A stretch of 36,266 nucleotides of DNA from an uncultured Sphingomonas sp. (lineage in GTDB: Bacteria; Pseudomonadota; Alphaproteobacteria; Sphingomonadales; Sphingomonadaceae): positions 1 through 36,266 of the forward strand of contig CAJYOI010000056.1 in the NCBI GenBank assembly GCA_913776045.1, written 5' to 3'. The notes below the pieces were generated by a model. That model was not told the origin of the DNA, searched no databases, and worked only from the letters and a program-made list of their open reading frames with translations. Below are positions 2,807 through 4,886 of the stretch, piece by piece. Made by a program: the position numbers and the translations under genes. Positions within the stretch are counted from its first letter, which is position 1; the number at the start of each line of letters is the position of its first letter.

Positions 2807-2930
2807 GGCATCCCTGCGAGAGCGAAAGATACTGACGCGCTTTCTTCGCATTACAAGTCTTGAAACCTTGGCCGACACGATTCACATTCGGGGTGTGTCG
2901 AGCAACCGGCACGCTCGTGTTCAACAAGCG

Positions 2931-2944
2931 AAAGGAGGTGATCC
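2931..2944 (+). promoter_or_regulatory. Extended perfect Shine-Dalgarno sequence
   Basis: AAAGGAGGTGATCC is the exact complement of the last 14 bases of typical bacterial 16S rRNA (GGATCACCTCCTTT). Ordinary genes in this window match four to six of these bases. One base separates it from the ATG at 2946, which puts GGAGG seven bases from the start, the optimal spacing. It decides the start of the 18-codon ORF. Confidence 0.85.
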
Positions 2945-2945
2945 G

Positions 2946-3002
2946 ATGTCTCATGGTTCAGCAGTGGGGTCGGTTCAGTTCGTTCGGGAGACGCGCGTCT
3001 GA
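2946..3002 (+). CDS. 18-residue small ORF with extreme ribosome binding site
   Basis: The ORF reads MSHGSAVGSVQFVRETRV and stops at TGA 3000-3002. It is supported by the 14-nt perfect Shine-Dalgarno match directly upstream and its ideal spacing. No gene follows on the same strand, so it is not an ordinary leader peptide of a downstream operon. It appears to be the coding part of an independent short transcript ending at the terminator at 3143-3190. A weak promoter-like TTGAAA at 2860 lies upstream with no convincing -10. The peptide has no membrane segment and no signal; it is mildly basic at its end. An overlapping frame from ATG 2953 to 3039 (28 codons) also exists but lacks the spacing. 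I do not recognise the peptide, and translation may matter more than the product. Confidence 0.6.
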   Translation: MSHGSAVGSVQFVRETRV

Positions 3003-3139
3003 CCTGACGCGCGGACTAGGCGGCAACGCCGGTCCGTGAGGGTGCGCGGGGGGTATCCTCCCCCAATCAACGGCACCCGCATCAGGCATCAGACGCCCGC
3101 ATGGTCTCCCGGGCTGGAGCTCTCCGGCCGCTGACCATG
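3003..3139 (+). ncRNA. Candidate structured RNA: three-way junction plus hairpin in the 3' part of the sORF transcript
   Basis: Directly after the sORF stop the sequence can fold into a closed three-way junction. P1 pairs 3003-3010 (CCTGACGC) with 3079-3086 (GCATCAGG), with one mismatch. P2 pairs CGGAC 3012-3016 with GTCCG 3032-3036 and GGCG with CGCC around a GCAA tetraloop at 3023-3026. P3 pairs GGGTGC 3040-3045 with GCACCC 3073-3078, holding an inner G/C hairpin, and abuts the 3' strand of P1. A second hairpin follows: CATGGTC 3100-3106 with GACCATG 3133-3139, with an inner seven-pair stem and GCTC loop. The folding was done by eye. I match it to no named RNA family; tmRNA, RNase P and 6S RNA do not fit. 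Confidence 0.55.
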
Positions 3140-3142
3140 TCG

Positions 3143-3190
3143 GAGGTCGTCGGGGTGGTAGAAGCCACCCCGGCGGCCTCTTTCAGTTTG
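3143..3190 (+). terminator. Strong intrinsic terminator closing the sORF/RNA unit
   Basis: A 16-pair stem (3143-3158 with 3165-3180, two of the pairs G-U) closes a TAGAAG loop and is followed by CTCTTTCAGTTTG, a moderate T-rich tract. It is the most stable hairpin in this gap and lies where the RNA transcript would be expected to end. Confidence 0.7.
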
Positions 3191-3281: not shown

Positions 3282-3363
3282 GTCATCCCGGACTCGATTC
3301 GGGATCTAGTGCCAAGTCCCGTGTCGCCTGCGACTGTGGATCCCGGATCAAGTCCCGGATGAC
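3282..3363. repeat. 82-bp palindromic interspersed repeat, copy 1
   Basis: The element starts GTCATCCCGGAC and ends GTCCCGGATGAC, so its 12-bp ends are near-perfect inverted repeats, with inner GGGATC/GGATCCC arms. A second element of exactly the same length lies at 24517-24598, with similar sequence throughout. Both lie in intergenic space and neither encodes a protein. This is the pattern of REP/MITE-like repeats. Confidence 0.85.
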
Positions 3364-3492
3364 GAAGAGTGGGTTTCAGCGGGGCTTTGCAAAAAGCTGG
3401 TGCGCGAGCTGCACCTTACGCACGAAGCGCTGTGCTTCGATCGGCGAAGCGAGCAGTTCAGGTCCGACTGCAGCCCCCAACCCTCACGCCGC

Positions 3493-3956: not shown

Positions 3957-4886
3957 TCAGACCGCGACGGGGGCGGCGATGTGGGCGTGGGGTTCGTAGC
4001 CGGTGACCGTGAAGTCGCCGATCGCATAGTCGAAGATCGTGTTTGGTCGCCGCGCGATCGTCAGCCGCGGGTCCCCGCGCGGCGTACGCGCCAGCTGCTG
4101 CTCGACCAGATGCGCGTGATTCAGATAGACGTGCGCATCGCCGCAACTCCACACCAGCTCGCCCGGCTTCAGGTCGCATTGTTGCGCCAGCATGCGGATG
4201 AGCAACGCGGCGGAAAAGGCGTTGAACGCGAAACCCAGTCCCAGATCGCACGACCGCTGCCACAACATCCCCGACAGCTTCCCGCCCGACACATGATACT
4301 GGTATGTCATGTGGCACGGCGGCAGCGCCATCCGGTCGAGTTCGGCGACGTTCCAGCCGGTGAAGATGTGCCGGCGCGAGGCCGGGTTGGTCCGAAGCGA
4401 CGTCACCAGCGCGGCGATCTGGTCGATCCCGCGGGACGCCTTGCGGTACAGGCCGCCCTCGACCGGTTCGTACACCGGCCAGTCGACCCACTGCTTGCCA
4501 TAGACGGGCCCAAGCTCGCCCCAGCGTGCGGCAAACGCGTCGTCGGCCAGGATCCGCGCTTCGAACGTGTCGCGGTCCAGGCCTTCGCCGGTCGCGCGAT
4601 TGTACGCATCGAGCGGCCAGTCGGTCCAGATGTGGACGCCCTGTTCGACCAGCGGGCGGATGTTGGTGCTGCCGGACAGGAACCATAGCATCTCGCGTGT
4701 CGCGGTCTTCCACGCCACCCGCTTGGTGGTCAGCAGCGGCACGCGATCGTCGCTGAGGTCGAAGCGCATCGTCGGGCCGAACAGCGACCGGGTGCCGACG
4801 CCGGTGCGGTCGCGCCGTTCGTCGCCGCGCTCCCACACGGCGCGTAGGAGGTCGAGATATTGCTGCTCGTAATGCGGGGCGGTCAT
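3957..4886 (-). CDS. thyA: Thymidylate synthase ThyA
   Basis: ThyA methylates dUMP to dTMP with methylene-tetrahydrofolate as carbon donor and reductant. The 309-residue protein starts MTAPHYEQQYLDLLRAVWER, followed by the phosphate-binding arginine region DRTGVGTRSLFG, TTKRVAWKTATREMLWFLSG and the active-site segment ALPPCHMTYQYHV with nucleophilic Cys at about residue 191. The dUMP-binding RSCDLGLGFAFN and HVYLNH segments are intact. The length is a little above the common 264-residue form because of an insert around residues 85-140, which many alphaproteobacterial ThyA proteins share. The gene is divergent from the c-di-GMP protein across 127 bases that must hold both promoters. Confidence 0.97.
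   Translation of the reverse strand: MTAPHYEQQYLDLLRAVWERGDERRDRTGVGTRSLFGPTMRFDLSDDRVPLLTTKRVAWKTATREMLWFLSGSTNIRPLVEQGVHIWTDWPLDAYNRATGEGLDRDTFEARILADDAFAARWGELGPVYGKQWVDWPVYEPVEGGLYRKASRGIDQIAALVTSLRTNPASRRHIFTGWNVAELDRMALPPCHMTYQYHVSGGKLSGMLWQRSCDLGLGFAFNAFSAALLIRMLAQQCDLKPGELVWSCGDAHVYLNHAHLVEQQLARTPRGDPRLTIARRPNTIFDYAIGDFTVTGYEPHAHIAAPVAV

Follow-up and report, generated by a model that had tools for sequence, protein, structure and literature searches.

The window, a stretch of 36,266 nucleotides from an uncultured Sphingomonas sp., contains a compact plus-strand unit at 2922-3190. The motif CAACA is followed by an extended Shine-Dalgarno (SD) sequence, GAAAGGAGGTGATCC, an ATG one base further on, a short open reading frame (sORF) of 18 codons, a long structured part and a terminator. 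A lipoprotein-like frame stands upstream on the plus strand; its protein has no Pfam match. Downstream, no gene lies on the same strand, as the first-pass annotation had noted, and the first gene recognised by Pfam is a thymidylate synthase on the minus strand (3957-4886), with a 125-residue minus-strand frame that has no Pfam match between it and the RNA. The best explanation is that these features form a transcription unit of about 290 nt, which would encode a small structured RNA of an alphaproteobacterial group; the Rfam family CC2171 (RF01867) is the only catalogued part of that group that we found. Beyond the terminator, at 3282-3366, there are inverted repeats of the CATCCCGGACTCGATTCGGGAT kind that resemble dispersed palindromic repeats.

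The 321 nt at 2880-3200 fold with a computed energy of -181.5 kcal/mol, compared with -138.05 ± 5.2 kcal/mol for shuffled sequences (z = -8.36; none of 100 shuffles was as stable). Together with covariation in short-form relatives, this rules out a chance fold, and the element is real and conserved. The first-pass annotation was right to see here a compact, structured RNA that carries an sORF and ends in a terminator of its own, and to set it apart, as regards the window, from an ordinary attenuator. Two of the checks that it had proposed left it unrefuted: compensatory changes are present in relatives (in P2, in the insert and, across families, in P1), and no Rfam family reaches its cut-off in the window. 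It overlooked that the leader is complementary to the 16S rRNA tail, that there is a long-range helix (P1) and that the fold starts inside the ORF.

Upstream of the RNA, a promoter-like element (2854-2883, plus strand) combines CAAGTCTTG, with CTTG at 2859-2862, and GATTC at 2879-2883, 20 nt on. The latter is a GANTC site, presumably a site of CcrM methylation, and the whole element may be a GcrA-type promoter; a scan for the sigma-70 consensus gave no hit. When all CTTG-GANTC pairs in 164 upstream regions were counted, a spacing of 20 nt came up 100 times, followed in frequency by 10 nt with 26. GANTC is present in 126 of the 164 regions versus 37.5% of shuffles. The sequence CAAGNCTTG (2854-2862) forms an inverted repeat across the -35-like box; it is found again upstream of relatives, possibly as the site of a regulator. 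In Erythrobacter-type upstream regions (for example, L084, L100, L119 and L171), a conserved stretch (AUCAGCGGCGAACGCGGUCUUGG and the like) lies between the promoter-like element and the leader, possibly as a further RNA domain.

The leader opens with CAACA (2922-2926, plus strand), the first bases of the RF01867 consensus, which is frequent, though not invariant, in relatives. The extended SD (2930-2944, plus strand) is complementary to the 16S rRNA tail: GAAAGGAGGUGAUCC pairs with GGAUCACCUCCUUUC(U), covering 15 of the last 16 nt of 16S rRNA, with the AUG one base after the complementary stretch, and the duplex is computed at -29.9 kcal/mol. A search of the window's own assembly for the complement of the 16-nt tail, allowing up to three mismatches, gave 18 matches, of which the window site is the best with one mismatch, at the first base; two others have two mismatches and fifteen have three, and a reversed control pattern gave four matches. 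The tail was read directly in one genome, that of another alphaproteobacterium (G654), and is presumably the same in the source genus, in whose queried genomes the 16S landmark was not found. In a close relative (L002), the insert that separates the sORF stop from the 3' strand of P2 includes a P2r hairpin with GGATCACCTCC in it; this sequence copies the 16S tail and could base-pair with the leader of the same RNA.

When the 321 nt were searched at the DNA level against genomes of the family (E ≤ 0.001), 267 of 298 genomes and 88 of 96 genera gave a match; the top five matches cover all or almost all of the unit, while the lower matches among those listed cover mainly the leader and ORF. Scanning named genomes with a pattern returned at least 119 loci, and the 80 titles among the matches listed are those of sphingomonads or of unplaced metagenome-assembled genomes with broader names (bacterium, Alphaproteobacteria, Proteobacteria). 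These loci and others were combined into 166 distinct elements with an ORF starting MSHG, a set that leaves out one locus with a 56-residue ORF (L152). More widely, a leader-start pattern matched 61 of 398 genomes of the phylum, every one of them alphaproteobacterial, and a related pattern of leader and start matched 31 of 385 genomes of the class. Within the order, a shorter pattern matched 52 of 147 genomes, 51 of them in the window's own family and the lone outsider apparently unrelated. Because the patterns demand the leader, its perfection among pattern hits is by selection; a few elements found via RF01867 carry GGTGGTCC or GATCGAATG in its place.

The ORFs of the distant elements have 14-36 codons and dissimilar peptides. 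One subtype of 14-16 codons, VSxxKRCHLA... (L295, L296, L240, L241 and L243), has within the ORF a UCACCUC complementary to its own SD, and its DNA is very similar between genomes. Five contigs filed as viral in IMG/VR (L240-L243 and L245) hold a like element, which may be host sequence or mark prophage borders. A phage origin was rejected, there being one weak phage match and six pattern matches on viral contigs, of which L244, with a 71-codon ORF, is something else. A plasmid origin was likewise set aside: the eight Azospirillum plasmid matches, two of which were inspected, cover only the leader.

The leader also suggests a reading that we regard as unlikely, in which the RNA is a sponge: under some condition it would sequester 30S subunits by binding their 16S tail, or interfere with maturation of the 16S 3' end, and the ORF would serve only to recycle bound subunits. 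Such a sponge would account for the near-full complementarity to the tail, the best match in its own assembly and one found across the class, and the start codon one base after the duplex may, by its spacing, slow initiation. However, neither the helices P1 and P2 nor the insert nor an ORF of fixed length would be required for this, and of the 52 genomes of the order that the leader-start pattern matched, 48 have a single hit, so titration of ribosomes would require very high expression.

The ORF (MSHGSAVGSVQFVRETRV and stop; 2946-3002, plus strand) runs from ATG at 2946-2948 to TGA at 3000-3002, as first annotated. Its length is 18 codons in 153 of the 166 elements and 15-20 in the other 13, and all three stops occur (TAA 93, TGA 54, TAG 19). 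Conservation of the stop is by itself modest evidence, since TGG, the sole T-purine-purine triplet that is not a stop, would be rare by chance. Over codons 5-18 of the 153 ORFs, the first, second and third codon positions have entropies of 0.92, 1.01 and 0.67 bits, respectively. Coding selection would leave the third position the most variable, and here it is the least; the frame and stop thus look kept, whereas the amino-acid residues do not. By these entropies the peptide does not look selected, the property that would mark a dual-function sRNA, and the earlier suggestion of a dual-function RNA with a selected peptide finds no support in the codon variation.

It is therefore highly improbable that the RNA is the mRNA of a functional 18-residue peptide. 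The MSHG start and the conserved length are what a small-protein gene would have, but the invariant codons double as a strand of P1, the search pattern for the loci included MSHG, many unrelated residues occur at positions 7 and 10-18, and the peptides of other families share little past the first codons. Most loci were found by a pattern that fixes the first codons, so the invariance of these codons is partly by selection; RNA pairing explains the remainder.

Within the fold, P1 is a long-range helix (2952-3139, plus strand) that joins ORF codons 3-10 with the strand before the terminator. It consists of P1a (2952-2956 and 2958-2962 with 3130-3139) and P1b (2968-2973 with 3124-3129). In P1a, codons 3-6 pair with GCUGACCAUG; across 58 short-form relatives 99.1% of its cells are paired, but it is nearly invariant and so says little by itself. 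Distant elements vary more in sequence here, and differ by compensation, for example CAUUGUC/GACAAUG, CAUAGUU/GACUAUG, CACCAAA/UUUGGUG and AUGAGAUU/AAUCUCAU. We collected 65 of them, with near-identical ones collapsed and four IMG/VR contigs included, and scored 56. The 18 nt around the terminator start pair with codons 2-7 above the control-window mean in 40 of the 56 (Wilcoxon p = 4.6e-6, a value that takes the elements as unrelated) and not above controls in 16. Tested element by element, in 42 elements, P1 gave mostly weak p-values.

P2 (2985-3111, plus strand) pairs 2985-2992 with 3104-3111 and is extended by 2993-3000 with 3091-3100, its 5' strand being the last sORF codons. Its pairing probability is 0.99 in the full transcript, and the extension covaries in relatives. 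Covariation was measured on the A2 alignment, comprising 58 of 67 non-redundant short forms after nine had been removed by hand for odd inserts. Six P2 pairs show two-sided changes: one is C-G in 20 sequences, G-U in 18, A-U in 10, G-C in 5 and U-G in 2, and the adjoining pair is C-G in 32 versus G-C in 21. Another pair proposed for P2 (66/102) can be made in just 19 of the 58. Taken over the whole structure, covariation scores 0.227, versus 0.124 ± 0.007 in shuffles (0/500) and at most 0.064 when the partners are slid. Cells paired and cells with a two-sided change also lie above all shuffles, whereas the remaining two of the five measures do not rise above them (pairs with a two-sided change, 44/500; pair types, 173/500). 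Near the sORF end of nine loci (L165, L174-L176, L179, L273, L281, L283 and L293), GAGCARCCU occurs in different frames and looks like a hairpin loop; this hairpin-like element is possibly a counterpart of P2.

Two smaller hairpins exclude P1b. P0 (2940-2947 with 2969-2975; 2940-2975, plus strand) masks the end of the SD and the start codon, and P4 (3112-3118 with 3123-3129; 3112-3129, plus strand) is the second; GGUCGG is common to P0 and P1b, and CCGGCC to P4 and P1b. In the full transcript (2902-3190) their pairing probabilities are 0.55 and 0.80, respectively, and the register of P4 differs between subgroups. Of 32 GTG-start elements, 28 have the motif, and the base at -1 and its P0 partner are complementary in 25 of these, against a permutation mean of 20.4 (p = 0.0023). 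Singly, P0 is weak, with p ≤ 0.05 in 12 of the 65 distant elements, and on that count we rejected it as a class-wide feature. The unit closes with an intrinsic terminator and its U-rich tail (3142-3189, plus strand): the hairpin at 3142-3181 has a loop of 4 and is followed by a T run, and the scan gives it 18 pairs where 16 had been counted by eye. A hairpin with a T run likewise follows P1 in the relatives examined. Sequence comparison thus points to an invariant core of leader, AUG, 18-codon ORF, P1 from the ORF start and P2 from the ORF end.

The three-way junction that had been placed directly after the stop (3003-3086, plus strand) lies outside this core. It is built from P1r (3003-3010 with 3079-3086), P2r with its GCAA loop, and P3r (3040-3078) with the AAUCAACG strand. 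In the window, P1r has seven of eight standard pairs, C3008-A3081 being the failure, and a mean pairing probability of 0.83; a near relative (L148) has C-G at that position. P2r and P3r appear in the minimum free energy fold, as drawn earlier, and covary in relatives. The junction therefore stands as a structure, but the fold begins inside the ORF and the junction is an insert. As a conserved core it is rejected, because 107 of the 163 scored elements (three of the 166 were left unscored) are short forms with fewer than 62 nt between stop and P1.

In long forms, 11 with P2r and 18 without, there are many two-sided changes in P2, the P2 extension, P2r and P3r; these are 29 of 56 long forms, chosen by motif, and the structure was predicted from the same sequences. 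At least eight of nine P1r pairs form in 12 of 19 relatives versus 25% of shuffles, although on inspection three of the 12 match other conserved strands. The comparison indicates that the junction is a lineage-specific, covarying insert on the tip of P2.

A second hairpin (3100-3139, plus strand) had been described as a unit beside the junction. Its perfect 7-pair stem, 3100-3106 with 3133-3139, is present, but it shares strands with P2 and P1a and is an alternative to P1 and P2, not a neighbour. Its probability rises from 0.00 in 2902-3190 to 1.00 in 3000-3190, a segment that lacks the ORF strand, and forcing it in the full transcript gives a fold 4.5 kcal/mol above the best. All seven pairs are possible in 40 of 56 long forms and in 6 of 107 short forms. 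The hairpin would be expected to form when a ribosome holds the ORF.

The setting of the 166 loci was compared with that of the window, using ORFs called by a simple script and single-linkage clusters, with flanks that are partly short. A gene of one cluster (about 189 residues, with a lipoprotein-like start) lies upstream on the same strand in 144 loci, and 2 further loci have it after the RNA, on the minus strand. In 46 loci, the downstream neighbour is a minus-strand gene belonging to a single cluster. In 41 (for example, L126, L119 and L171), it is a same-strand gene resembling class IV aminotransferases, an assignment made by Pfam on the one member tested, and 37 of these genes lie no more than 290 nt from the P1 end; these loci are mostly Erythrobacter/Novosphingobium-type, and the gene follows the terminator. 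An sORF, then mutually exclusive structures, then a terminator is the order of parts in an attenuator, and these 41 neighbours also speak for one. Nevertheless, it is very unlikely that the RNA is an attenuator or leader of a neighbouring gene, as the window has no such gene downstream on the same strand, another 46 loci have a minus-strand neighbour of one family, and the upstream gene is far more constant.

The balance between the alternative folds was computed for naked RNA throughout. In the full transcript the best fold, at -160.2 kcal/mol, has P0 and P4 (state A), and forcing P1a gives -158.4 kcal/mol, a cost of 1.8 kcal/mol. Holding the SD single-stranded raises the probability of P1a from 0.17 to 0.93. 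We folded 160 of the 166 relatives on a stretch that starts 15 nt upstream of the SD core, ends shortly after P1 and does not include the terminator: the median probability of P1a is 0.525 when the RNA is free, and it is at least 0.5 in 159 of the 160 when the SD is held open. On this shorter stretch the window RNA itself gives 0.83, compared with 0.17 in the full transcript, where state A is preferred. Freeing the SD costs a median of 4.05 kcal/mol over the 160 relatives, set against -29.9 kcal/mol for the tail duplex.

We give an even chance to a model in which the RNA is a translation-gated sRNA, switched between folds by 30S docking and ribosome transit. In state A, P0, P4 and P2 would form, with the end of the SD and the start codon masked. 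In state B, P1 and P2 would form with the SD free, and pairing of the 16S tail of a 30S subunit with the leader would favour P1. The subunit would then wait at P1 as at a gate, because P1 (+7 to +17) must melt before the start. In state C, a ribosome on the ORF would strip P1 and P2, leading in long forms to the hairpin at 3100-3139 beside the terminator. How ribosomes load and pass would in this way set the fold of the 3' part. The RNA would probably act in trans as a regulator and, through its activity or stability, signal the availability of ribosomes, and the peptide would be a by-product.

Judged by comparison among relatives, the unit shows selection for fold, leader, start, frame and stop, and for the window RNA we infer transcription, 30S docking, the fold switch and the output in trans. 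Among the first-pass guesses, that of a ribosome-associated regulatory RNA is the best supported. An ordinary Hfq-type regulatory sRNA, with the sORF an accident of conserved seed and stem sequences, would likewise have a structured body, a terminator with a U tail and invariant stretches usable as seeds, and the low variation at third codon positions agrees with it. This explanation is improbable, however, given a stop at codon 19 in 153 of the 166 elements with all three stop codons in use, and a start codon immediately downstream of the site that best matches the 16S tail in the assembly, an arrangement also found in other families.

The translation-gated model can be extended, speculatively and in our view with a rather low chance of being right, to a class-wide RNA sensor of ribosomes. 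Its conserved 'ligand' would be the 16S tail of free 30S subunits, and docking and transit would reset the fold and the trans-acting output, so that the RNA reports free ribosomes and not a metabolite; the mini-ORF would only time and release the ribosome. In sphingomonads, it would have a fixed chromosomal place and possibly cell-cycle methylation control, through GANTC at a fixed distance from the -35-like box.

Turning to known RNAs, Rfam at gathering thresholds returned nothing in the window and nothing in 20 distant loci. At an E-value threshold, the window matches RF01867 at 30.5 and 30.8 bits (E = 9.5e-5 and 5.4e-5), short of the gathering score of 75 bits. In 190 genomes of the class, 56 match this family at E ≤ 0.1 and seven exceed the cut-off; since a control list also matches weakly in unrelated genomes, weak RF01867 matches alone prove little. 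A match to ctRNA_pGA1 at 3123-3188 (26.7 bits, cut-off 45) was judged to be a terminator-hairpin resemblance and set aside. CC2171, a Caulobacter sRNA that reportedly goes back to Landt et al. 2008, shares with the window RNA the CAACAA-GAAAGGAGGUGAUCC leader, the start triplet with UCUCAU and the 3' terminator. The window aligns with the RF01867 leader, CAACAAUCGAAAGGAGGUGAUCC, with one different letter, and the outer helix of the family, in which the ORF start pairs with pre-terminator bases, is present.

There are differences. The window has ATG after G, whereas CC2171 has GTG after A, and P1 is CAUGGUUCAGC/GCUGACCAUG in the window compared with CAUUGUC/GACAAUG in CC2171. P2 at the ORF end and an insert of about 80 nt are both lacking from the RF01867 model. 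The interior hairpins of the model align to the window with a 77-nt insertion, deletions and low posterior probabilities. By cut-off, the window RNA is no member of RF01867, but by leader, P1 and terminator it appears to be a divergent relative; contrary to what had been proposed, the class is not wholly undescribed, because CC2171 is a distant relative. A second copy of MSHCH type in the same genus (L220 in G091, about 1485-1660) follows the same plan, is nearer to CC2171 than to the window RNA and scores 68.9 bits against RF01867, so some sphingomonads carry both subtypes; the window's own assembly has no comparable second hit (the next is 19.3 bits).

We found no function for CC2171 in the open-licence literature, nor CC2171 by name together with Caulobacter, and did not find there the insert, the P2 covariation, the signature of a frame without a peptide or the class-wide span. 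In the parts available, Rfam 15 names CC2171 as a family improved by a single covarying pair (PMC11701678), and an RF01867 candidate appears in a survey of Mesorhizobium (PMC5596092). The available text of Schrader et al. 2014 (PMC4117421) describes intergenic Caulobacter ncRNAs as not translated, which counts against reading this RNA as a translated sRNA. It also reports that 75.4% of Caulobacter genes start without an SD sequence (PMC4117421); among mostly SD-less starts, a leader that pairs with nearly the whole 16S tail and a frame-kept mini-ORF within a fold are a striking exception.

Extended SD pairing near the start codon is similarly described in S. aureus, where, in the portion of that study available, it is a general feature of mRNA start sites (PMC13009471), whereas here it is part of one structured RNA. 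A parallel in mechanism is the S. meliloti duf1127 leader, as presented in the accessible part of its report (PMC12218461). Its short uORF has first codons that alternate between the ribosome, a hairpin over the ribosome-binding site and another role, and it is proposed to sense ribosome shortage, with the RNA, not the peptide, being what matters. That leader acts in cis on the downstream gene by premature termination, and it differs from the window RNA in sequence and place (PMC12218461). By analogy, it indicates that ribosome-gated codons can be suited to sensing ribosome shortage, although a cis target gene is absent in the window. The window RNA would lend itself to asking how cells might sense free 30S subunits, and a nearly orphan Rfam entry, CC2171, becomes a testable system: the kind of RNA is catalogued, and the variant and its reading are new.
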